Part shown: one piece after another, positions 11,167-31,413 of the stretch | Numbering within the stretch: the first letter of the stretch is position 1 | How the letters are laid out: each line of letters starts with the position of its first letter | IMG/VR virus record: IMGVR_UViG_3300038752_000240 | Coordinates: 1 to 31,413 of that record | Strand: one strand, 5' to 3' | Source of the DNA: a virus | DNA: 31,413 nt | Notes under the pieces: model-generated | The model's database searches: none | What the model saw: the letters and a program-made list of their open reading frames with translations, nothing else | Told to the model about the DNA's origin: nothing | Position numbers and translations under genes: made by a program

Positions 11167-14100
11167 ATGGGAGCTATTTTATACACAGAAGGAGGAGAAT
11201 TACAATATTTAGATGGAAGGGATTATATAGGGTCATACCATATAATGCCTGATGGTACTCCTATGGGAGGGGCAGTTCATACAGGTAAGGAAGATATTTT
11301 AAAATTTTCTACTAATAGGGCAACGGTATCTAGTGCTAATCTAAATGATTTTTTAACTCAACCCTTTGAATTAAGCGATTCCACTATAATCCCCAACTTT
11401 GACATTCCCAGTTTTTATGACCCCACTGTAGATAGGATAGAGTTTCACATTTATAGTGCGGATAAAACTTTATTATCATCCAATCCCAATTTCAGAAATT
11501 ATAGAGTACAAAATGATCAGGGTAGTGAAGGAGAGATAGAGGAGATTCAACTATTCCCATCTGAAGATATATCTAATGCAGGCTTTGATAAGGGAAGTCT
11601 TTTTGCTTTATATAATTTCATTACACCTGAAATTAGTGATATTTTTATTTCGGAAATATCACCTGATAGAACAGAAATAAGACTTCAATCTAATTTTTTA
11701 ACTAGTGAGGAAATTAGGGAAGAAGTAGTAAGTCTAAAAACTAAAATAGAATCTGTAGGGTATTTTGATGAATTCTATCTTAATTTTGGAAGAAATAATT
11801 ATTACATTTGTGTTAACATTCAATTAGATGAAACTACATCTCCTACTTCATTTTTAATAAAATTATACGAACCTCTCCCTGCTTCTATTACTACTAAAAC
11901 TACTTTAGAAGTAGTAAGTAAGATATCAGAAACACAAGCTTTTCAAGTTTCCTATCCATCTATACCAACCCCTGATGATGTTCTTAATACTTTAAGGGGT
12001 CCTAATACTAATTTAGAGATAAAAGATAGAGTAAATAATTCTACAGAATTTAAGAATTTAACTACATTAACTACTTCTTCTTTCACATCTTCTTTAGATC
12101 AATCAAGTTATTTACTTAAACAAACCGGAATAAAATTAAACCCTAGTTACTCTATTAGTTCATACTCGGATTTTGTTCATTTTTCTTCAGCTAAAAAAAG
12201 ATTAGAAAATTTTTATTATAAGGTAAGTCAAATAGAATCTAATCAAAATTCTATAACTTCCTTAAGAACTATTACGGGGGGTTCCTCGGGTTCTATAACT
12301 ACCACTACCTCTATTAAATCTTTTCAGGATAATATAACTGAACTAATTAGGAATTTTGATGGATTTGAATATTTTTTATATTATAATAGTGGATCTAATT
12401 CCTACCCCAAATCTAATTCTAGCGCCCCCTATATATTACAATCAACTGGGAGTACTGAGGTATTAACCTGGTTAGGTAGTGATGATATTACTAATGCATT
12501 TTATGGGGGAGCATTATTAGATGCATCCCGGTTTGATGATAATAATCCTAGTAACCTAAAGTATACTATACCTGAATTTATAAGAGATAATTCGGATAAT
12601 AACAATTATATAGAATTTGTAAATTTAGTAGGCCAACATTTTGATGAGATATGGTTGTATGTTAAAGCTATTACGGATAAATTAAGTGCTACTAATAATT
12701 TAGAAACAGGTATACAACCTGAATTAGTAGAGGAAACGCTTAAATCTTTTGGGTATGAAGTATATGGTAATAATTTTGATAACAATGATATATTTACCAG
12801 CTTAATAGGTATAAATGAATCTGGATCATATTTTTCGGAAACCAACCGGGAATTAATTACTACTGCTATATCCGCTAGTAATACACCTGTTCCCATAAAT
12901 GATGTTAGTAAAGAAGTTTATAAAAGATTATATCATAATTTAGTATACTTAGCTAAGAGAAAAGGTACTGTTTCTGGTTTAAGAAGTTTAATTAATATTT
13001 GGGGTTTACCGGATACTATTTTAAGGATATATGAGTTTGGTGGTAAAGATAAAATAAATTCCAATGATTGGGATTTATATAGAAGAATATATAATAGGGA
13101 AATAGTTACACACCAATTTGATGCTGATAAGGGACAAGAATATAATGGTGGTGTAGAAACTGAATGGAAAATTAACTCACAATGGTCCGCTTCTGCTGCT
13201 GTATCTAATTTAACAGGTAGTGTACCTTCTACAGTTGAATTTAGATTTAAATCGGATATTGATCCTGCTACTACTCCTACTCAATCTATACCTCTTCAAC
13301 CTTTATGGGGATTAAAAGATGATGGTGGGGATACTAAAGTTTTAGTATATTTAGAGTATAAAGGATCAGGATCATTTAGTTCATCATTTAGTGGTTCAAC
13401 CATAGATCCCAATTACCAATATGCTGATTTAACTCTGGCTGTTAGTGGTTCACCTCCTACTTCTGCATCTATTTCCTTACCTTTTTATAATAAAGATTGG
13501 TGGAATGTAAGAGTACAAATGCAGGAGCAGGGATTGGCTAACATTAATCAATCTAGGTATCAATTAGCTTCTGCTAATAAAATTTATAATGGAAAAGATG
13601 GTACTCAAATAGGATTTAAAGATGGAATTAAACTCAACCAAATATCAGGTTCATGGGTTAATTCCACTACTAGTAGTTTTGCATTAGAAAGATCATTTAA
13701 TTCTAAAACATATAATAATTTTAGTGGTTCAATACAGGAATTAAGGTATTGGACTTTATGTTTTAATAACCAATCTACTATTACTGAAGAAGTTTGGGAT
13801 AACCATGTTATGGATCCATTATCTATTGAAACTGGTTATTTGACGGGTTCATTATCTCCCGTTGAAAATTTAGTCTTTAGATCCAGGGAGGGAGAAGACA
13901 TAGGATTAATTACGGGTTCACAAGGTAATATTAGTTTTCTTAATTCTATTCACCCCAAAATTTCTGGTTCTTACTCCACTATATCTTCTTTTAATGATAA
14001 TTCTCGTTATAGTTTAATTACATCATCTATAGCTAGTAATAGGGAGATTCAATTCTTAAACCAACCTAATTTAGGTATTAAAAATAGAGTAAGTGATAAA

Positions 14101-17100
14101 ATTCACATTTATAATAATGTAGCTTACAGTGATACCCTATCATCATACAGATCCATTCAACAAAATTATGAAGCTTCCCAATCATTTACAGAGGATAATA
14201 ATTTACTACAAGTAGCATTTTCTCCCCAGGATGAAGTCAATGATGACATCATAAATGAATTGGGATTTAATAATAAAATTACTGAAACATTAGCTGACCC
14301 ACGAAATTTATCTTCATCATTGGATTATTATGATGGTTTAAGAGACATAGCCCTAAGATATTTTGAAAAGTATGTAAAAACTAATGCTAATGATTATTAT
14401 AGGTTAATTAAATATATAGATAATTCCCTATTTAAAGCCATTAAAAACTATATACCTGCTAGAACTTCGGTTTCCACTGGTATAGTAGTTAAACAGCATT
14501 TATTAGAAAGAAATAGAGTAAGACCACCTCAAGTAGATTTAGATACTACTATAGCTAAAACATCCGAAGGTAGTTTTAATACAGATTTTATTTTTAAAGA
14601 TATAACAGTTAGTGGAGCTATTAAATCTCAACCTCGTGGATATATAACAGGTTCATCCATTGAAGTATTTAGTGGAGGTACGGGAGGATCATTTGAAAAA
14701 TTTAATTCTCTTCATTTCCACCCTTATGGTGTGTCAGGTAGTGGTCCAACAAAAAGATTTGGGTATGATATTACTCAATCTTTTATAGAAACAGTTACCA
14801 CTTTATCTGGTAGTGTTAATACTACTATAAGTAACCAGGATGAGTTTTATAATGGAGAATTTAATGGGGCTAATATTGTAGTAACGACTCAATCCTTGAA
14901 TCCTGCATGCGAGAAGTTCCTTAATGTTAATATATCTGCTGGCGAATTATCCCATCAGTTTGATAGGTTTGTTTATACGAGTAATACTTGTTCATTAGCT
15001 AAATTTAATGATATAAAAACAGCACCTAGAAGTGGAGAAATATTTTTATTTAGAAATTCTAGTAATTTAAATAATATAGAAAAAATAAAAATTTCTCATA
15101 CTACTAAAGGTGGAGTGGATCTATCAACCATATTACCTGCAGTAGATAGATTTACATTTGATTTTGACGGTAATAATAAAGGAGTTAATGTAGACTTTGA
15201 TTATGGGGGTGGATCTTATACTACATTTGATGTAACATCACCTTTATTTACTTATGATTCTACTAACTTTAGTTCTAACTTTGTTCCATATCCTTTTACA
15301 GGATCAAAAACGGGAAGTCATGAAGCTATTACAGTTAATTGGGATGGAAATAAGTTAGTTAAAGGAGGTACTGCACAAGCTGCTATTGGGTATAATACCC
15401 AAGAAGTCATAGTATCTGATTATCAAGTAGAAAGTGATAGTCATAATTTATTTAATACTAGTTCTGGTATATATACTTGTCCTTTAACTAATAATAAATT
15501 CTTATCAGTTACTAGTTCCCTTAGCTCCTTTACTATTAATTGGACTAATAATATATCTTATTCTATTGATACAGATGTACAATTTAGAGTTAAAAATCTT
15601 TCCACAGGCGAAGAATTAGATTCTTTAGGGGGTTTCCAAACAACAGTTGAACAAACCTCTAGTATAGGACAAGCATATTCAGGTCCAGAACAAAAAGTTC
15701 TCCTTACCCCTTCACAAGCAATAAGAAGTGGAGATCAAGTAGCTTTAGTAGCACAATTAAATACAGCCTTTACTCCATTTCAAGCAATAATACCTGGACA
15801 ATCCGCTGCAGCAAACATTACGGCGTCTTTTTCATTTAGTAATGCTTTATTTGCTATAAGCGAATCCATAGTAACAGATAGTAACCCTGTTTCTACTCTA
15901 ACTGCTATAGAACCTGCATTTACTGTAGGTGATATTGGTTTTGATCGTGAATTTGATTGCCAGCCTTTATTAAATAACTCAATAGAAAATAGAGATTCCA
16001 CTCTTTATCAGGATGTGGATTATTCTACAGGTTTATTAGTTCCTACTAATGTAATTCCTATAACTAACAATGATGCTAACCCTGCTCAAACCCCTGATTC
16101 TAATTATTCTCAATTATCCAGAACTCTATTAAGATATAAGGGTTCAAAATTAGAAGCCCTTAGAATAAATGCTTATAATGGAGCTGGTGCTAAATTAAAA
16201 GATGGTACTACTTGGCTAGGGGACATATCATTTGGGAAAACCCCAGTTATTAATAGAGTTAAACCATTTTTTACTTATTTTCAATTGTTAGTTCCTACCT
16301 CCCCAGAATTAGAGAATGCTACACAAGTAAAACTTGCTTATCTAATTAATTCTAATGGGGATGCATTTAAACCCCTTCTAAATTCAGATACTTTCTTTGA
16401 TGTAGAGGGTACTTATGAAAGTGGAGATAGAGTAGATATAGCATTAGAAGATACTCTTCAAACAGATGATGCATCTTTAGTTAACGCAGCAGTAGGAATT
16501 AATTTAGATAATTTTAATACAGGTGCAAATGTAATTTATGGAGCAAGAAGAGTAGATCCTATAATTACTAGTCAAAGAGTATCTGTAAATGATGTAAGTA
16601 ATATATCGGATGCATTCGAAAATACTATTACTTTTACAAGTATTTTAGGAGAGCCTAATAATTTTTACTTTTTAGCCGCTTCTAATTTTAATAGTATTAC
16701 TTATCAAACTCAAAATAATCATACTTTATTAGGTTATTCTACTTTTAGTACACAAGATTCAATGGGTGGGTTTGATGCTACTACTGGTATTTATACCATT
16801 CAATCCCCGGGACCTGTACCAGGAAATGATATATCATTTGAAATAAGAGGAGCTTTTAAAATTAATAGTTTACTTACTTCTATTTCTAATTTATCTCTAG
16901 TTGCTCAACAAATAGGATCACCTCAAGCTAAAATTCAAATAATAAGAAACAGATCCTCAGTAGAAACTATTTTAGCGGAAGAAATTTTAAATTATACATT
17001 TGCTTTAAACCTAGGTGCAACTCCCCCATTTGTTACTGAGTTTCAACAAGTAAATTTAGTTTCCTCCCCCACAGAAATGAGAGTAGGAGATGAGGTATTT

Positions 17101-17673
17101 GCTAGACTAGTAATAATAAATCCTAATGCCTTTGAAGTTGTTAATGCAAATAGGGCCCTAATAGGTACCCCGATATCTTTTCCCACCACTACAGTAGAAC
17201 CAGATTTCTTTAAAACTGGAAGTAATTATACTAATTTTATTACTGCATCTGTATCATTTTCTCAGTTTGTTGATCTATCTCCACAACAACCTTATGCTAA
17301 TAGTACATTTAAACCTATTAATGAAAATATTTCTTTTAGACCAGGTGATGAACTAAGATTTGAAGGAAGTGAAGCTCTTGCTTTTAAAATCTATGATGTT
17401 GATTTAGTTACCTCTGGGCATGCTTCAGGTAGTTTCTTATTAAATGTGCAACCTGAGGTACCACCTAAAGTTAATTTAAATCAATTTTTATTAAGAAGAT
17501 ATAATCCGGATGCTACTTCCGTATTAATAGATCTAGTACCACCCTCATCTTCATTTGCTACCACTAAAGGAGTAATGAAATCCACGTTAATATCGGAAGA
17601 ATTAGGACAGAATATTAATTCTATTGTTTCGGATTTAGTAAAAGAGGGAGTAATATCTAGTAATGGTGGATAA
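11167..17673 (+). CDS. giant baseplate wedge / tail-fibre-type structural protein (2168 aa)
   Basis: Residues about 18-38 carry YIGSYHIMPDGTPMGGAVHT, a short module I associate with phage structural proteins. Residues about 130-185 contain NAGFDKGSLFALYNFITPEI and DIFISEISPDRTEIRLQS, FN3/beta modules common in large marine T4-like baseplate proteins. Residues about 590-625 (YKRLYHNLVYLAKRKGTVSG) resemble a tail-protein-I-like segment. Residues about 660-905 look like a LamG/concanavalin-like domain (YNNFSGSIQELRYWT). Around 1090-1120 comes IPARTSVSTGIVVKQHLLERN-like sequence. The last about 1000 residues are Thr/Ser/Asn-rich beta domains. T4 gp7 is 1032 residues, so the first about 1140 may be the gp7-like part with a long C-terminal extension. 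No frameshift is seen. The likely role is an outer baseplate or receptor-contact structure. Confidence 0.7.
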   Translation: MGAILYTEGGELQYLDGRDYIGSYHIMPDGTPMGGAVHTGKEDILKFSTNRATVSSANLNDFLTQPFELSDSTIIPNFDIPSFYDPTVDRIEFHIYSADKTLLSSNPNFRNYRVQNDQGSEGEIEEIQLFPSEDISNAGFDKGSLFALYNFITPEISDIFISEISPDRTEIRLQSNFLTSEEIREEVVSLKTKIESVGYFDEFYLNFGRNNYYICVNIQLDETTSPTSFLIKLYEPLPASITTKTTLEVVSKISETQAFQVSYPSIPTPDDVLNTLRGPNTNLEIKDRVNNSTEFKNLTTLTTSSFTSSLDQSSYLLKQTGIKLNPSYSISSYSDFVHFSSAKKRLENFYYKVSQIESNQNSITSLRTITGGSSGSITTTTSIKSFQDNITELIRNFDGFEYFLYYNSGSNSYPKSNSSAPYILQSTGSTEVLTWLGSDDITNAFYGGALLDASRFDDNNPSNLKYTIPEFIRDNSDNNNYIEFVNLVGQHFDEIWLYVKAITDKLSATNNLETGIQPELVEETLKSFGYEVYGNNFDNNDIFTSLIGINESGSYFSETNRELITTAISASNTPVPINDVSKEVYKRLYHNLVYLAKRKGTVSGLRSLINIWGLPDTILRIYEFGGKDKINSNDWDLYRRIYNREIVTHQFDADKGQEYNGGVETEWKINSQWSASAAVSNLTGSVPSTVEFRFKSDIDPATTPTQSIPLQPLWGLKDDGGDTKVLVYLEYKGSGSFSSSFSGSTIDPNYQYADLTLAVSGSPPTSASISLPFYNKDWWNVRVQMQEQGLANINQSRYQLASANKIYNGKDGTQIGFKDGIKLNQISGSWVNSTTSSFALERSFNSKTYNNFSGSIQELRYWTLCFNNQSTITEEVWDNHVMDPLSIETGYLTGSLSPVENLVFRSREGEDIGLITGSQGNISFLNSIHPKISGSYSTISSFNDNSRYSLITSSIASNREIQFLNQPNLGIKNRVSDKIHIYNNVAYSDTLSSYRSIQQNYEASQSFTEDNNLLQVAFSPQDEVNDDIINELGFNNKITETLADPRNLSSSLDYYDGLRDIALRYFEKYVKTNANDYYRLIKYIDNSLFKAIKNYIPARTSVSTGIVVKQHLLERNRVRPPQVDLDTTIAKTSEGSFNTDFIFKDITVSGAIKSQPRGYITGSSIEVFSGGTGGSFEKFNSLHFHPYGVSGSGPTKRFGYDITQSFIETVTTLSGSVNTTISNQDEFYNGEFNGANIVVTTQSLNPACEKFLNVNISAGELSHQFDRFVYTSNTCSLAKFNDIKTAPRSGEIFLFRNSSNLNNIEKIKISHTTKGGVDLSTILPAVDRFTFDFDGNNKGVNVDFDYGGGSYTTFDVTSPLFTYDSTNFSSNFVPYPFTGSKTGSHEAITVNWDGNKLVKGGTAQAAIGYNTQEVIVSDYQVESDSHNLFNTSSGIYTCPLTNNKFLSVTSSLSSFTINWTNNISYSIDTDVQFRVKNLSTGEELDSLGGFQTTVEQTSSIGQAYSGPEQKVLLTPSQAIRSGDQVALVAQLNTAFTPFQAIIPGQSAAANITASFSFSNALFAISESIVTDSNPVSTLTAIEPAFTVGDIGFDREFDCQPLLNNSIENRDSTLYQDVDYSTGLLVPTNVIPITNNDANPAQTPDSNYSQLSRTLLRYKGSKLEALRINAYNGAGAKLKDGTTWLGDISFGKTPVINRVKPFFTYFQLLVPTSPELENATQVKLAYLINSNGDAFKPLLNSDTFFDVEGTYESGDRVDIALEDTLQTDDASLVNAAVGINLDNFNTGANVIYGARRVDPIITSQRVSVNDVSNISDAFENTITFTSILGEPNNFYFLAASNFNSITYQTQNNHTLLGYSTFSTQDSMGGFDATTGIYTIQSPGPVPGNDISFEIRGAFKINSLLTSISNLSLVAQQIGSPQAKIQIIRNRSSVETILAEEILNYTFALNLGATPPFVTEFQQVNLVSSPTEMRVGDEVFARLVIINPNAFEVVNANRALIGTPISFPTTTVEPDFFKTGSNYTNFITASVSFSQFVDLSPQQPYANSTFKPINENISFRPGDELRFEGSEALAFKIYDVDLVTSGHASGSFLLNVQPEVPPKVNLNQFLLRRYNPDATSVLIDLVPPSSSFATTKGVMKSTLISEELGQNINSIVSDLVKEGVISSNGG

Positions 17674-22507: not shown

Positions 22508-23308
22508 ATGATATCATTAGTACAACTTTTAAAAGAACAAACTAATAAACCTAAGGCTATTATTTTAGCTGGTGCCCCAGGTGCGGGAAAAGGATCTATC
22601 TTGAAAGATCTTGATTTAGGGGGACTTAAAATACTTAATATAGATGATATCTTTATTAAAAATCTTAAACAAGCTAATGTTAGTTTGGATTTAAAAAATG
22701 CTACACCTGAGGAAAGAGTTGAACAAGCTAAACAAATGGCTGCGGCTAATAAAGAATTTAAGGGTGAACTACAAGGAGTAATAGATGGTAAACAATCATT
22801 TGTACTAGATGGTACTGCTGCTTCATACAATAAAACTGCTGAGTTGAAACAGGAATTAGAAGAGGCGGGATATAAAATAATGATGCTTTATGTTTATACT
22901 GATTTAGAACGTTCCCTAAAACAAAACGAAAAACGATTTGAAAAATCAGGAGGTGAGGATAGAAGTTTACCACCTGCTATTGTAATGCGTACTTGGAAAA
23001 GTGTAACAGATAACATAAAACCCTATTTTAATTTATTTACACCTAATTTTATAGCTGTAGCCAATACTTTAAAGGGTGATAAAATTGAAGACATAGAGAA
23101 AATTATTAAAAAATACCTTACTCCATTTAAACCTACAGGAACTAAACCTAAGACCCCAGCACAACAAAAAAGATCTAAGGAACAAAGAGATAAATTAAAT
23201 GCTGAAATTCAAGATATGTTAGATGAAGAATTTCTATATGATATTCTACAATATACAATATCTAGGGAAGAAGCACAAATGAGATTAAAACAATTCCTAA
23301 ATGGCTAA
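22508..23308 (+). CDS. P-loop kinase, polynucleotide-kinase / zeta-toxin-like
   Basis: In this 266-residue protein a Walker A motif GAPGAGKGS lies at 22-30. NIDDIF (44-49) matches the Asp-bearing substrate loop of T4 polynucleotide kinase and zeta toxins. SFVLDGTAA (97-105) gives the Walker B-like strand, and VYTDLERSLKQN plus RSLPPAIVMRTWKSV resemble the lid region of T4 Pnk. It likely phosphorylates a nucleic acid 5' end or a nucleotide/sugar. T4 Pnk's Arg38 equivalent is not obvious. The N-terminus MISLVQLLKE ends in an L-x-E tripeptide that a prohead protease could cut. A Lys/Pro linker (about 205-235) leads to a C-terminal helical tail. It overlaps the 971-residue fusion gene by 8 bases. 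Confidence 0.8.
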   Translation: MISLVQLLKEQTNKPKAIILAGAPGAGKGSILKDLDLGGLKILNIDDIFIKNLKQANVSLDLKNATPEERVEQAKQMAAANKEFKGELQGVIDGKQSFVLDGTAASYNKTAELKQELEEAGYKIMMLYVYTDLERSLKQNEKRFEKSGGEDRSLPPAIVMRTWKSVTDNIKPYFNLFTPNFIAVANTLKGDKIEDIEKIIKKYLTPFKPTGTKPKTPAQQKRSKEQRDKLNAEIQDMLDEEFLYDILQYTISREEAQMRLKQFLNG

Positions 23309-26216
23309 AATAGGATTATATGGAGGTGGGTTTAAACCCCCAACTAGGGGACACTTTGAAGTAGTAAAACAAGCTCTTGAAAGTAATCCCGATCTTGATT
23401 CACTTATAGTTATAGTAGGTCAAAAAGAGAGAGGTGGTATAGATCAATCTGATTCCCTAGTTATATGGGATATGTATTTAAAATATTTACCTTTAAAAGT
23501 TGAAATACTACCAGTAGCAACTCCTATACGTACTGTTTATAATCTAGCAAAAGAAAATCCACAGAATAAATATAAATGGTTTTTAGGTAAAAGACAAGGT
23601 AGGGAAGATGATGAAAGTGATATAGCATTAAGAACTAAACATCTTACTACTAAAAAGGATGATTATCCTAACCTAACTCCTATAACTATTGAGACCGGAA
23701 ACGGGGGAGTTAGTGGTACTAAGGCTAGAGAATATATAAAAAATAATGATAAAACAGGTTTCTTTTCTTTACTACCTAATAGTTTATCCCTTGAGGAAAA
23801 AGAACAAATTTATACTATGGTATCTAAAAAAATAAATGAAGGGGGCCATAAAAAAAAGGACCCAAAAACAGGAACTGGTAAAAAACCCGAGGGTTCAGGG
23901 AGACGTTTGTATACTGACGAAGATCCTACTGATACTGTAAAGATTAAATTTAGAACTAAAGAGGATATAGTTGATACTTTAAATAAAAAATCTTTTAAAG
24001 CCAAATCTCATGCTCGTCAATCTCAAATAATTAACTTAATCCATCAAAGAGTAAGAGCAGCTTATCAAAATTCTAAAGATTCAGATACTAAAAGTAGATT
24101 AAAAAGAGCTTTTGATTATATTGCAGATAGGAAAGAAAAATCTAAGGAAAAAACCAAACGTTTAAGACAACAGGACGAAAGTTTAAAGGGATTTGCTAAG
24201 AGTAATGTAGGTACAAGATATAGAGCTATAGAAAAAAGAGGTAGTAAATATTATTACAGACAGGATGATCCATTAGGTGCTGGAATTAAACAAGAATTTG
24301 GTCCATTTGATACCAAAGCACAAGCTATTAAAAAAATGGAGGAATTTCCCCCAGCTAGTAGTTATAGGGATATTACAGATAATATAGATCCCGAAGCTCA
24401 AAAGAAACATAAAGGTAAATCTGCTCCCTATGGATCTGCTTATGAACCTATAAATGAAATAGGAATTGAATTATCTAATTATTCAGGACAAATATTACCT
24501 GGGGATGTAGTTTATGCTCCTAAGGGCTTTCCTTTAAGAGGCAATAAAAAGTTAATAAGGGGATTAGCTCTTAAAGTAATTAAAAACACAAGAGAGGGAG
24601 TAAATAGATATAAATTAACCTTAGAAGATCCCAAAACGGGAGAAAAATATTCAGTTCGTAATTTTGAAATGGATGGGGAGTATAAAGGGGAAAAATTACC
24701 ACAATGGTCATTAGTAAGAAAATCCACTAAGAATATAGAAGAACTAGTAAGAAAAGTGGGTGATTACTATCATGTAATGAAAAGAGTCCGTTTAAAAGGT
24801 AAAACATCTAAGGGTAAAGCAGGTAAGGGGAAGAGAAGATTTAAAAGAAACCCATCTGGTGAATATAAATACAAAACTATTAAAAAATATAAGCGTAAAA
24901 AAGACGCTACGGATCTCCAAAGAGCCATAGATATTAACTATTTTGGGGAATCTTTACAAATAACTTCGGAGGGGGATACTTACGAAAAAATGGCTGCTAA
25001 AGGTAAAAAAACAGGTACTTTAAAACAGGGTACTGTTAGAAAAAGATTAGGTATAAAAAAGGGGGAAAAAGTTCCATTATCTTTAATTAAAAAGGAAATA
25101 GCACGTTTGAAAAAAATGGATAAGGATCCTAAAAAGAAGGGAGCTCAATTAGGAGATAAAAATCAAAAATATTATAAAGCATTGCAGTTAGCTAAGACTT
25201 TAAAAACTACTACCAATATTAATGAAAATGCCACTTATTCTGATAGTATAGATTATAAACAACAGATTCTTAATTTAACTAAACATATGTTAGAGAAGGG
25301 AGAAAATATTACACCTTTACCTAATGTTGTTTTTAAGCATGGTGACCAGGAAAATGCTAAAGAATTTTTAGGTAAAACAGCTTATTATGATCCTAACACT
25401 ATGACTATTGTGTTATACACTGAAGGTAGACATCCCAAAGATATTGTTAGGTCATTTTCTCATGAAATGATTCATCATCAACAAAATTTAGAAGGTAAAT
25501 TAAATAATATTAATACTACTAATACTCTAGAAAATGATTATTTGGAAGATATAGAAAAAGAGGCATATTTAGAGGGTAATATTAACTTTAGAAATTATAC
25601 TGATAGTCAATTACACGAAGAAAAACCATATAAACATAAATTTGGATTTAATAAAAAATTAGGTAAAGACCCATTTGGTATATCTGCTTTTGCTTACGAA
25701 TTAGCGCGTGGATTAGAAGAACAAGAGGATAAAGTAAAAACTAAATACACAATTTATTCAGATATGGATGGTGTATTAACTGATTTTGATAGTAGATTTA
25801 AGGAATTTTCTAAGGGTATTGCACCTAGGGATTATGAAAGTAAATTTGGAACAAAGAAATTTTGGAACTTAGTAGATGAAGTGGGAGGAGTAGATTTTTG
25901 GGCTGATATGGATTGGATGTCTGATGGTAAAACTTATTGGAATTATATTTCAAAATATGACCCTATCATCCTAACTGCACCATCTATGAATCCAGTTTCA
26001 AGATTAGGTAAAAGAAAGTGGAGAGATAGTAATCTACCTGGGGTAAAAATGAAAATGGCTTCCGCCAGAAATAAGCCTAATTATTCTAAAAGAAATTCTA
26101 TCCTAATTGATGATAGACAAGATACTATTGATGCTTGGAATGCAGAAGGTGGGATAGGAATTCATCATACATCTGCAGCTAATACAATTAAAAAATTAAA
26201 AGAACTCGGTTTATGA
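23301..26216 (+). CDS. multidomain nucleotidyltransferase-metallopeptidase-HAD phosphatase protein (971 aa)
   Basis: Residues 1-175 are a HIGH-superfamily (cytidylyltransferase/NMN adenylyltransferase-like) domain: GGGFKPPTRGH (8-18) and VSGTKAREYI (137-146). Residues about 300-350, 392-473, 487-550 and 561-636 are small basic domains of unknown role. Residues about 645-770 form a zincin-like peptidase with SHEMIHHQQ (HExxH at 721-725) and a likely third ligand in EKEAYLEGN (about 754-760). Residues 815-971 are a HAD hydrolase: DMDGVLTDFD (821-830), ILTAPS, K905 and LIDDRQ (935-940). [I/L]-x-E tripeptides end at 180, 386, 642 and 773, close to domain borders. No intact catalytic motif appears lost. 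I infer a packaged polyvalent protein or polyprotein; substrates are unknown. Confidence 0.85.
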   Translation: MAKIGLYGGGFKPPTRGHFEVVKQALESNPDLDSLIVIVGQKERGGIDQSDSLVIWDMYLKYLPLKVEILPVATPIRTVYNLAKENPQNKYKWFLGKRQGREDDESDIALRTKHLTTKKDDYPNLTPITIETGNGGVSGTKAREYIKNNDKTGFFSLLPNSLSLEEKEQIYTMVSKKINEGGHKKKDPKTGTGKKPEGSGRRLYTDEDPTDTVKIKFRTKEDIVDTLNKKSFKAKSHARQSQIINLIHQRVRAAYQNSKDSDTKSRLKRAFDYIADRKEKSKEKTKRLRQQDESLKGFAKSNVGTRYRAIEKRGSKYYYRQDDPLGAGIKQEFGPFDTKAQAIKKMEEFPPASSYRDITDNIDPEAQKKHKGKSAPYGSAYEPINEIGIELSNYSGQILPGDVVYAPKGFPLRGNKKLIRGLALKVIKNTREGVNRYKLTLEDPKTGEKYSVRNFEMDGEYKGEKLPQWSLVRKSTKNIEELVRKVGDYYHVMKRVRLKGKTSKGKAGKGKRRFKRNPSGEYKYKTIKKYKRKKDATDLQRAIDINYFGESLQITSEGDTYEKMAAKGKKTGTLKQGTVRKRLGIKKGEKVPLSLIKKEIARLKKMDKDPKKKGAQLGDKNQKYYKALQLAKTLKTTTNINENATYSDSIDYKQQILNLTKHMLEKGENITPLPNVVFKHGDQENAKEFLGKTAYYDPNTMTIVLYTEGRHPKDIVRSFSHEMIHHQQNLEGKLNNINTTNTLENDYLEDIEKEAYLEGNINFRNYTDSQLHEEKPYKHKFGFNKKLGKDPFGISAFAYELARGLEEQEDKVKTKYTIYSDMDGVLTDFDSRFKEFSKGIAPRDYESKFGTKKFWNLVDEVGGVDFWADMDWMSDGKTYWNYISKYDPIILTAPSMNPVSRLGKRKWRDSNLPGVKMKMASARNKPNYSKRNSILIDDRQDTIDAWNAEGGIGIHHTSAANTIKKLKELGL

Positions 26217-27170: not shown

Positions 27171-28442
27171 ATGCCCTTTAAAAGAGTAGGTAAATGTGTT
27201 CATAAGAAATATGCTAATAAAAGTATTTCTAAAAAACCTATTGGGTGTTCAGATAGTGCTGCAGGTGCTAAGGAATACCTAAAGGCTCTTTATGCTAGTG
27301 AAATGAACGAAAGAAAGGAAATGTCCCCAGCTGAAGTGTCTAAAAGGGAAGATATTATAAGGGGGATGTTAGATAATAAAAGAACCTTAGTTAAAAAATA
27401 TGGTGCTGATGCAGAAAAAGTAATGTATGGTACTGCCACATCTAAAGCTAAAAAACTTGCTGAAATGGAATCAAAAGATAAACTTAGAGAAATCATTAAA
27501 AAAGCTCTTTCCAAACCTATGGAAGAAGAAAAAACAGATAAATTTGATGATAACCCAGCATTAAAAGGTAAACAAAAAACTAATTTACCTGATGCATTAC
27601 AAAAAGCAATCATTAAGAAAAAAGGGGGTAAAATAGAAGAGGGGGATTTAGACTTAGGACACCAGGATAATGAGCCTAATGATATTAAATCTAAATTATA
27701 TAAAATAGGTACTGATGCTATGGCTCTATATAAAATGGTTAAACCATTTGATGAGATGAACCAAGAAGTAGATTTTCCTTCATGGTGGCAAAGTAAAGTA
27801 ACTAAATCTCAGGATTATATAGAAAGTGCAAAGGAATATTTAGAATTTGAACTTAAAAAAGATAAAATAGATGCTCTTACAGAAAAGGAGGAATTAAAAG
27901 AAGATATTAAAAAAATAGCTAAGGATTTTTTTTTAGAACTCCAGGAAGTTAGAAGAGTAAAACAAGATCCTGACATAAAAAAAAAGAAGGGAACACAACC
28001 CGCTAAATACTATAAAGGACTATCCAAATCTACTAAATCTAAAAGAGATGCCCAGTTTAAAAAACAAACTAAAATGGGTAAGGATGATCCTGAGGCGTAT
28101 AAAAAAGCACCAGGTGATACTAAGGGCAAAACTAAACCTTCTAAATATACTAAAAAATTTAAAGAAAGATTTGGTGAAGGGCTTACTGAAAGTGATAAGG
28201 TAACTAAAGCATTAAAAAATAAGGCTAAAAAAGCTAATGCACCTCTATCGGCTTTAAGGGCTATTTATAATAAGGGATTAGCAGCTTGGAGAACAGGTCA
28301 TAGACCCGGAGCTTCACAGCATGCTTGGGGATTAGCTCGAGTTAATTCTGTGTTAACAGGAGGTAAGGCTAGAAAAGTAGATGCTGTTCAATGGAAGCAA
28401 ATACAGAAATACCGTAAGAAAAAAAGAAAAAGTAAAAAATGA
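27171..28442 (+). CDS. mosaic basic multidomain protein of internal-virion type (423 aa)
   Basis: Five modules are visible. (1) 1-45: VGKCVHKK, PIGCS and GAKEYLKALYA with C9 and C26. (2) 52-98: KREDIIRGMLDNKRTLVKKY and KVMYGTATSKAKKLA. (3) 140-235: helical, with DFPSWWQSKVTKSQDYIESA. (4) 272-335: GTQPAKYYKGLSKSTKSKRD and KYTKKFKERFGE, which I believe is a named phage domain of unknown function (DUF5824-like, from memory). (5) 350-397: APLSALRAIYNKGLAAWRTG and HRPGASQHAWGLARVNSVL. An amphipathic helix (DKLREIIKKALSKPMEEE) separates modules 2 and 3, and L-T-E340 precedes module 5. The protein ends in Lys/Arg. Such modules recur in different orders in phage proteins thought to be packaged. No enzyme motif is seen. 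Confidence 0.75.
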   Translation: MPFKRVGKCVHKKYANKSISKKPIGCSDSAAGAKEYLKALYASEMNERKEMSPAEVSKREDIIRGMLDNKRTLVKKYGADAEKVMYGTATSKAKKLAEMESKDKLREIIKKALSKPMEEEKTDKFDDNPALKGKQKTNLPDALQKAIIKKKGGKIEEGDLDLGHQDNEPNDIKSKLYKIGTDAMALYKMVKPFDEMNQEVDFPSWWQSKVTKSQDYIESAKEYLEFELKKDKIDALTEKEELKEDIKKIAKDFFLELQEVRRVKQDPDIKKKKGTQPAKYYKGLSKSTKSKRDAQFKKQTKMGKDDPEAYKKAPGDTKGKTKPSKYTKKFKERFGEGLTESDKVTKALKNKAKKANAPLSALRAIYNKGLAAWRTGHRPGASQHAWGLARVNSVLTGGKARKVDAVQWKQIQKYRKKKRKSKK

Positions 28443-30332: not shown

Positions 30333-30935
30333 ATGTGTAATTGTGGATGTAATACATGTGAAACTAAACCTTTCACCCTTAATGAGAGTTTAACTACTAA
30401 ATCTCTGTTATCTGAGGGCCTTAGATATTGTTTGGAAAATGATAAGCCATTAACTGAACATATTTACAGGGCAGGATCAGAATCTTATTTTAATTTATGG
30501 GCAGAAGCAAGAACACTATATTCTAGAAATTTAATTAATGTATCTGGTACAGATCAAGAGATTCTAACTGAAACTGATTTAGGTCATTTTGGTATGTATG
30601 AAAATAAAAAAGTACCTTTAGATTTTATTTTTGAGGCGGAATACCGAGGTAGGGAAGTAGAACTAAATAAACCTAAAAGAGGTGGTTCGAAAAAATTCTT
30701 TGTATATGTAAGAGATCCTAAATCCAAAAAAATAAAAAGAGTTGAGTTTGGAGCAAAAGGAGGAGGGCAACAGTTGTCTGTGAAAATGGATGACCCAGAA
30801 AGAAGAAGTGCATTTTCTAAAAGACATAATTGTCCCGAAAAAAATGATAAGACTAAAGCATCTTACTGGTCATGTAGACTTCCTCGTTATTGGAAATCAC
30901 TAGGTGGAAGTAGAAATTATGGAGGGTTCTGGTAA
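30333..30935 (+). CDS. Cys-cluster multidomain phage protein (200 aa)
   Basis: It starts with a dense Cys cluster, MCNCGCNTCE (C2, C4, C6, C9), able to bind metal. Then come residues 36-66 (PLTEHIYRAGSESYFNLWAE, then ARTLYSRNL), a small TDLGHFGMYENKKVPLDFI module (81-99), and a C-terminal basic domain (110-188): ELNKPKRGGSKKFFVYVRDP, RVEFGAKGGGQ and RHNCPEKNDKTKASYWSCRL. I recognise these modules as recurrent in T4-like marine phages, in various combinations. L/I-x-E tripeptides end at residues 18, 28, 42 and 80, between the modules. It is probably an internal virion or scaffold-linked protein; no enzymatic motif is evident. It overlaps the cupin gene. Confidence 0.75.
   Translation: MCNCGCNTCETKPFTLNESLTTKSLLSEGLRYCLENDKPLTEHIYRAGSESYFNLWAEARTLYSRNLINVSGTDQEILTETDLGHFGMYENKKVPLDFIFEAEYRGREVELNKPKRGGSKKFFVYVRDPKSKKIKRVEFGAKGGGQQLSVKMDDPERRSAFSKRHNCPEKNDKTKASYWSCRLPRYWKSLGGSRNYGGFW
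30906..30910 (+). promoter_or_regulatory. GGAAG, possible ribosome binding site for the cupin gene
   Basis: GGAAG lies eight bases before ATG 30919, inside the end of the upstream gene. Because starts in this window otherwise lack Shine-Dalgarno sequences, it may be a chance effect of the Gly-Ser codons, but it helps choose ATG 30919 over the in-frame GTG at 30904. Confidence 0.3.
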
Positions 30936-31200
30936 GCCTTATAAGGATATAGAAATTAAAGGTAATGGTTTTTTAAGGGTTTTTGATGATGATATAGACC
31001 CTATAGAACTATTATGGCATAGGGATAGGGAAGATAGGACTGTTGAAGTCCTCCATGATACGGATTGGAAATTTCAAGAAGATAATAAATTACCTATTGA
31101 ACTTAAAAAACATACTCGTATATTTATACCCAAATATAGTTGGCATAGATTAATTAAGGGAACTAAAAACCTTAAACTTAGAATAGTAGAAAATGGATAA
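30919..31200 (+). CDS. cupin-fold small protein (93 aa)
   Basis: The single-domain beta-barrel pattern is visible: IEIKGNGFLRVF, then ELLWHRDREDRTVEVL (H34, E38), DWKFQEDNKLP, and the second half FIPKYSWHRLIKGTKNLKLR (H76). These correspond to the two cupin motifs, giving at most a His/Glu/His metal site. I know this as a recurrent small protein in T4-like marine phages with unknown substrate. I chose ATG 30919; an in-frame GTG at 30904 would add five residues. The start lies inside the upstream gene (17-base overlap) and the stop overlaps the next start by eight bases. It is soluble, with no signal peptide. Confidence 0.75.
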   Translation: MEGSGKPYKDIEIKGNGFLRVFDDDIDPIELLWHRDREDRTVEVLHDTDWKFQEDNKLPIELKKHTRIFIPKYSWHRLIKGTKNLKLRIVENG

Positions 31201-31413
31201 GTTTGATTTTAAAGCATATATAGCTAATAATCCACTTCTTTTAGAACAAGAGGAATTGGATCTATCGGATGTGGGAGATGATATGGCTGATGCAGCGGAT
31301 TCATTAGATAATGCTATAGAGGATGAATTGGAAAAACAGGAAGAACTTAATGAGGCTCTAGACCCGGCTTCTTTATTATCTTATTTACTTGCATCTACTA
31401 CTGTTATTAATAT
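31193..31413 (+). CDS. N-terminal part of an internal-virion-type protein (cut by window end)
   Basis: The frame is open from ATG 31193 to the window end, giving 73 complete codons. The product begins MDKFDFKAYIANNPLLLEQE, continues with an acidic helix (DVGDDMADAADSLDNAIEDE), and then LNEALDPASLLSYLLASTTV, which is becoming hydrophobic as the window ends. L-L-E and L-N-E tripeptides flank the acidic helix, as in other proteins of this cassette. A membrane or amphipathic helix probably follows. I have seen the ALDP..(I/L)LS(Y/F)(I/L)LAS pattern in marine T4-like phage proteins but know no function. Confidence 0.75.
   Translation, partial: MDKFDFKAYIANNPLLLEQEELDLSDVGDDMADAADSLDNAIEDELEKQEELNEALDPASLLSYLLASTTVIN

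Follow-up and report, generated by a model that had tools for sequence, protein, structure and literature searches.

How does a phage make use of one protein chain that holds three unrelated enzymes? The question is raised by IMG/VR virus record IMGVR_UViG_3300038752_000240, a 31,413-base fragment of a marine T4-type phage that was analysed whole and is called the window below, and in particular by an open reading frame (ORF) of 971 residues whose position and parts are listed in Table 1. We found that this ORF belongs to a family of modular proteins in which a short motif, phi-x-E (phi being I, L, V or M), stands at module joints and in which leaders like those of T4 internal head proteins are common. 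We consider it likely that the ORF encodes a head-packaged cargo polyprotein, which is cut by the prohead protease and whose pieces are injected with the DNA.

An earlier note, made from the sequence, had described three unrelated enzymes in one frame with their key residues kept. All five motifs behind that description are found, namely GGFKPPTRGH (residues 9-18), SGTKAREYI (138-146), HEMIHH (721-726) and, in the HAD part, DMDGV (821-825) and LIDDR (935-939). AlphaFold2, run on an alignment from which two rows from annotated phage records had been left out, predicts the three folds with high confidence, the predicted local distance difference test (pLDDT) being about 93, 90 and 95 for the nucleotidyltransferase, the zincin and the HAD domain. 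Judged from these models, the chain is a CoaD/NMNAT-fold nucleotidyltransferase joined to an HExxH zincin and an NT5C-type HAD nucleotidase. Residues H18, R143, H721, E722, H725, E752, D821, D823, D937 and D938 are 100% conserved among 28-36 non-redundant relatives per domain, so that a chance origin of the motifs is excluded. In whole-protein family searches the HAD domain alone passed clearly, and the nucleotidyltransferase and the zincin were both under the curated cut-offs; identification of the domains therefore required relatives and models.

The nucleotidyltransferase aligns with CoaD/PPAT at VIA Z 17.6 (154 aligned residues, 2.3 Å), and its profile matches are mixed among NMN, NaMN and phosphopantetheine adenylyltransferases (best 2.4e-06). 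It has the Rossmann fold and the GxFxPxxxGH and S-x-T-x-x-R motifs of the HIGH superfamily, with G9, P13, P14, H18 and R143 invariant and S138 and T140 conserved at 94%. The HAD domain aligns with 5'(3')-deoxyribonucleotidases (3bwv/1z4i) at VIA Z 15.3 (136 aligned, 2.3 Å) and matches phrog_2643 at 1.4e-22 and, by profile, mitochondrial 5' nucleotidase at 2.4e-05; the NT5C features, a DxDGV motif I, a conserved Lys and a DD motif IV, are present, and D821, D823, K904, K925, D937 and D938 are invariant. The zincin, folded alone, is predicted as an N-terminal helix, three strands, the HExxH helix and a second helix bearing the downstream Glu behind the three-stranded sheet, and its site (H721, E722, H725, E752) is invariant in 33 sequences. 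Its best structural neighbours are nearly all zincins, yet all at Z below 8; its family matches (M91, DUF6782, DUF6647, MPTase-PolyVal) are weak, as are those to published clades (MPTase-PolyVal in 6 of 33 members, best 0.0031; M91 in 23 of 33, best 0.001), and its profile matched no PDB sequence.

Where the earlier note had seen at least four small basic domains, we counted five (A, B, D, E and F, with isoelectric points of 9.3-10.4) and the short repeat C. Module A is helical and covers residues 187-296 (window 23859-24152), module B is a beta domain at about 304-358, and module C spans about 25 residues (361-386). Our searches of Pfam and PHROG matched none of the small modules to a family, and since module A by itself turns up at 470 viral loci, the class may be large. 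A genome scan placed module A only in 7 contigs of metagenome-assembled genomes, of mixed taxa and probably viral, and for this reason no host is proposed.

The modules are shuffled: among 74 non-redundant relatives we found 42 multi-module orders, such as N-A-B-C-D-F-G-H-P here, N-G-H-F-A-B-D-P in relative L116 and N-F-C-A-D in L127. Genes that encode module A or module D by itself also exist, and in L145 module D stands alone behind the leader MIKLFDILSE/ (a slash marks a cut site or its counterpart). Module E, searched for elsewhere, was found in near-identical contigs only. Relative L006 (80% identical) is without it and reads KNVDE/GDTYEK at that place, and module E appears to have been inserted as a cassette at a phi-x-E joint in the window copy, where the phi-x-E site ahead of module F is lost (ITSE). 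Additional parts seen in other relatives are a cupredoxin, a second module of the HExxH type, a stretch resembling a zinc ribbon and an RNA-ligase-like end. The cupredoxin (plastocyanin/azurin, PF00127, 3e-13 to 2e-15) is embedded in the chains of L012, L013 and L019. A KxDG RNA-ligase-like domain (PF09414 at just 0.013) replaces the HAD domain in L021 (10281-11444) and at the C-termini of L146, L119 and L120; the last three also hold a different HAD-like domain (VYDFDDT ... FIDDS) after the nucleotidyltransferase, within the chain. The C-terminus of L021 found no match in isolate phages.

One motif marks the joints between the modules. Over 923 alignment breakpoints in the 74 non-redundant proteins, phi-x-E is 2.8-fold enriched within 2 residues of a breakpoint, compared with 0.5-1.4 fold for 11 control motifs (phi-x-D/K/N/Q/S/R/G, E-x-phi, phi-x-x-E, phi-E and K-x-E). 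Breakpoints are partly non-independent, and the joints were hence counted by distinct upstream context. The motif lies exactly before module D in 10 of 10 contexts and before module F in 13 of 15, the chance expectation being 1.6% for each context. Module A has it no more than 9 residues from its start in 37 of 41 contexts, against 5.4 expected; the binomial P values for D, F and A are 9e-19, 4e-22 and 2e-28. Counting the Glu at -1 as belonging to the module leaves phi at -3 as the test, and the P value for D and F is then still about 1e-7. Read from sequence, this joint motif matches the recognition motif of the T4 prohead protease gp21, which cuts after L/I-x-E (PMC9026906). In the window protein such sites at residues 180, 386, 481, 642, 773 and 807 are in or beside linkers; low-pLDDT segments lie no more than 2 residues from five of the six predicted cuts and 5 residues from the sixth, at 481.

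A second line of evidence comes from the N-termini. T4 internal proteins have a leader of 10-19 residues, and in the capsid-targeting sequence (CTS) of IPIII positions 4 and 7 serve targeting, while 8 and 10 serve processing (PMC9026906). In the T4 record IPII and IPIII begin MKTYQEFIAE/ and gp24 begins MAKINELLRE/. Exchange of E for D at position 10 of the T4 CTS stops processing. Family leaders include MIKLFDILSE/, MIKLLEILNE/ and MSELSDFLVKSILNE/, lone modules stand behind such leaders, and the T4-like pattern is present at 38 of 69 distinct family N-termini, compared with 1.6% in a null set of internal stretches. The kinase gene directly upstream in the window has such a leader as well. 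Among 30 distinct N-termini of its homologs, L4, L/I7 and E10 are each found in 26 and L8 in 24, and positions 5, 6 and 9 vary. Flavobacterium phage immuto, whose host is Flavobacterium sp. LMO8, encodes a homologous chain, and genes with leaders make up 10 of 25 in the block that holds it and 11 of 200 elsewhere (P 7e-6, somewhat optimistic because the block limits were set after the gene table was read).

Related records and published virions point the same way. Peptidase_S77, the gp21 family, occurs in 15 of the 16 related records that reach 60 kb and in 1 of 10 shorter ones; gp23 is found in all 13 related records searched, and the relatives' capsid proteins have phi-x-E where the T4 cut lies (e.g., QLVVE/SSQTG and FLINE/ATSDG). 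A putative 'citidylyltransferase' (T4-GC190) was detected by mass spectrometry in virions of cyanophage S-SM1 (Sullivan et al. 2010, PMC3037559). This protein begins MKKFSAFLNE/A, and it aligns with the profile of the window nucleotidyltransferase over 163 columns (hhalign probability 94%, E 1e-7). Cytidyltransferases are reported to be frequent in cyanophage virions, and a study of S-CREM2 found a cytidylyltransferase in virions and proposed its injection (PMC10665884).

Table 1. Positions and properties of the polyprotein, its modules and two neighbouring genes in the window
Feature	Residues	Window coordinates	Strand	Remarks
Zeta-toxin-like P-loop kinase	266 aa	22508-23308	+	Leader MISLVQLLKE/ (22508-22537); PF06414 5e-18; overlaps polyprotein start by 8 bases
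Whole polyprotein ORF	971 aa	23301-26216	+	ATG directly after in-frame stop
Module N, CoaD/NMNAT-fold nucleotidyltransferase (predicted)	1-180	23301-23840	+	Ends INE/; VIA Z 17.6 to CoaD; profile matches
Modules A, B, C	181-386	23841-24458	+	Ends INE/; A near phi-x-E in relatives
Module D, small basic beta domain	387-481	24459-24743	+	Ends IEE/; exact phi-x-E before
Module E, lysine-rich insertion	482-557	24744-24971	+	Between IEE/ and GDTYEK; near-identical contigs only
Module F, basic helical	558-642	24972-25226	+	Ends INE/; exact phi-x-E before it in 13 of 15 contexts, lost here (ITSE)
Module G, zincin metallopeptidase (predicted)	643-773	25227-25619	+	HExxH 721-725 and E752; ends LHE/; pLDDT 92 folded alone; invariant site
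Element H, amphipathic helix DPFGISAFAYELARGLEE/	774-807	25620-25721	+	Resembles family N-terminal leaders; helix at 794-810 in model
Module P, HAD 5'(3')-deoxyribonucleotidase-like phosphatase (predicted)	808-971	25722-26213	+	phrog_2643 1.4e-22; VIA Z 15.3
Second likely modular chain (DUF5824 and other modules, phi-x-E joints)		27171-28442	+	PF19141 2.9e-23

Several observations weigh against packaging and cleavage of the chain. The most serious is that the window protein itself begins MAKIGLYGGGF and has no CTS of 10-19 residues, although the leader of the kinase gene next to it is a perfect one; a stop codon stands in frame directly upstream of the ATG, which also rules out a leader hidden behind an upstream start. 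Close relatives and some other family members are likewise leaderless, as are the zincins that exist as stand-alone genes (L021 and L024). Only 11 of 24 contexts of the zincin show phi-x-E at a distance of up to 8 residues, and the joints of B and C are weak (5 of 9 and 3 of 12). The motif is found within folded domains too (residues 166, 348, 665, 860 and 968), so the motif alone is no proof of cutting. Neither the window, as annotated, nor the short contigs of its closest relatives showed a prohead protease, though all of these are fragments. A search for proteomics of the window phage found none, and the authors of PMC10665884 caution that detection in virions may be carry-over. Because the window copy has no leader of its own, its packaging is argued from the family, from the leader-like element H and from the adjacent kinase.

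The course of events that we infer, including cleavage, packaging, injection and substrates, would be as follows. During prohead assembly the 111-kDa chain would enter the prohead core, accompanied by neighbouring gene products that have leaders, among them the kinase. A protease of the T4 gp21 type would then cut after Glu at the six linker sites, freeing the nucleotidyltransferase (20 kDa), basic packaging-like modules (11-24 kDa), the zincin (15 kDa) and the HAD nucleotidase (19 kDa). The products, of 4-24 kDa, would be small enough for the portal and would exit with the DNA, to act early in infection on nucleotides, NAD or nucleic-acid ends and, through the zincin, on a protein target. The nucleotidyltransferase could restore nicotinamide adenine dinucleotide (NAD) or cofactors of the coenzyme A type; PMC12774641 describes phage NAD+ pathways that counter NAD-depleting defences. 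In relatives, the occurrence of a HAD along with a ligase-like domain would fit repair of nucleic-acid ends as well, and a later role for the zincin is possible beside cutting by the prohead protease.

A close precedent for this course is the set of T4 internal head proteins cut by gp21 (IPI, IPII, IPIII and Alt). The relatives and the upstream kinase share with them the 10-residue leader with hydrophobic positions 4, 7 and 8 and Glu at 10, and the wider likeness covers phi-x-E, small products that are mostly basic, and T4-type head genes in the relatives' records. The window chain differs in its many modules, internal cut sites, several enzymes and shuffled order, and in lacking an N-terminal leader. 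Head proteins of phiKZ and SPN3US are also cut after Glu by a gp21-related protease (gp175 and gp245, respectively) and then ejected, but their motif is S/A-x-E or A-x-E, and the reported cuts mostly remove propeptides instead of separating several enzymes. S-SM1 GC190 and the HTVC008M cytidyltransferase (phrog_395/phrog_3041) combine a homologous nucleotidyltransferase with further small modules and phi-x-E sites, and GC190 adds the T4-like leader seen in our family; both are shorter, have no zincin or HAD domain in the chain and carry other small modules. In S-SM1 a KxDG protein, GC71, adjoins GC190. Immuto gp088 unites a nucleotidyltransferase (25.5% identical) with a zincin (55%), and the HAD domain follows in the next gene, gp087, behind a leader ending LLLEE. 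It differs in a pol-beta-like N-terminal part, a second zincin-like end and the unfused HAD; modules A-F were looked for in the immuto chain and not found.

The same comparisons bear on other explanations. An ordinary intracellular fusion of enzymes that stays out of the virion and serves the salvage of nucleotides or NAD, or the repair of nucleic acids, would suit the leaderless window copy, the separate HAD gene of immuto and the primase and exonuclease genes that adjoin the polyprotein gene upstream. The latter two genes also mean that the neighbourhood is not purely late structural, which corrects the late region proposed in the earlier note. Such a fusion is nevertheless unlikely in view of the family leaders, the clustering of leader genes in the syntenic block of immuto, the non-random position of phi-x-E at the joints and the published detection of a leader-bearing homologous nucleotidyltransferase in virions. 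We regard as very improbable a variant in which leaders and joints have no use beyond attachment to the core and processing of the scaffold, the modules mainly condense DNA for packaging and the enzymes are passengers acting inside the prohead and not in the new host. The basic modules do resemble IPII and IPIII, and T4 internal proteins touch DNA via lysines (PMC3012670). However, all three active sites are invariant, with no obvious prohead substrate, and IPI is a precedent for an internal protein that acts in the host (PMC9026906).

Another model is offered by the polyvalent proteins of Iyer et al. 2017 (PMC5512222), under which the chain would be delivered whole and split by its own zincin during or after entry. 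Like those proteins, for which DNA-linked delivery was suggested, the window chain unites at least two unrelated effector-type domains and a zincin in one phage polypeptide; zincins are the hub domain of the group and its proposed processors, and the zincin here is intact, conserved and built on the core described there. The earlier note had pointed to this group, and the mixture of domains agrees with it; the chain is not a typical member, its nucleotidyltransferase being of the HIGH/CoaD type, in contrast to the pol-beta superfamily to which the frequent nucleotidyltransferases of PMC5512222 belong, and its small modules being unmatched. Less can be kept of the suggestion that the embedded peptidase processes the polyprotein. 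Complete relatives without HExxH (L119, L120, L146 and L115) keep the phi-x-E joints and genes with only a leader share the motif with no zincin in cis, and we therefore prefer the prohead protease as the separator. The motif moreover fits a known phage protease encoded by related phages, and zincins also occur as the separate leaderless genes mentioned above; delivery of the whole chain followed by self-splitting is improbable. The proposal that a multi-enzyme protein is delivered with T4-type phage DNA gains support from the family leaders, the relatives' gp21-type protease and the virion proteomics of a homolog, delivery itself being a step that we infer.

Beyond the cargo polyprotein of the window, we lean towards the wider view that uncultivated marine T4-type phages use modular cargo polyproteins, in which shuffled cassettes are joined at prohead-protease sites, the head-maturation protease is the general separator, and a phage simply acquires another injected effector when a cassette enters at a phi-x-E joint. 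A literature search confined to one library of papers found no cargo polyprotein cut by a prohead protease, an absence that is no proof of novelty. If the view is true, a leader or a phi-x-E joint would be a sequence rule for spotting injected phage proteins in genomes whose genes are mostly unknown, for this group the model of a self-processing zincin would give way to a testable one built on a known protease, and phages would be seen to gather injected enzymes through cassette insertion.

The gene order around the polyprotein is shared with immuto, where it lies between tail-fibre genes and the terminase. The C-terminal modules of the second likely modular chain (Table 1) are fused to a nucleotidyltransferase in Pelagibacter phage HTVC008M, and another of its modules is found in immuto gp079. 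Two further genes of the window concern leaders: that at 30333-30935 has a Cys-rich start, MCNCGCNTCE, and homologs in other contigs that start with leader-like helices, and that at 31193-31413, cut off at the window end, starts MDKFDFKAYIANNPLLLEQ, like a longer leader type of immuto (MENFDLKKFLVENKL...ILKE). At 11167-17673 there is also an ORF of 2168 residues that had no Pfam match.

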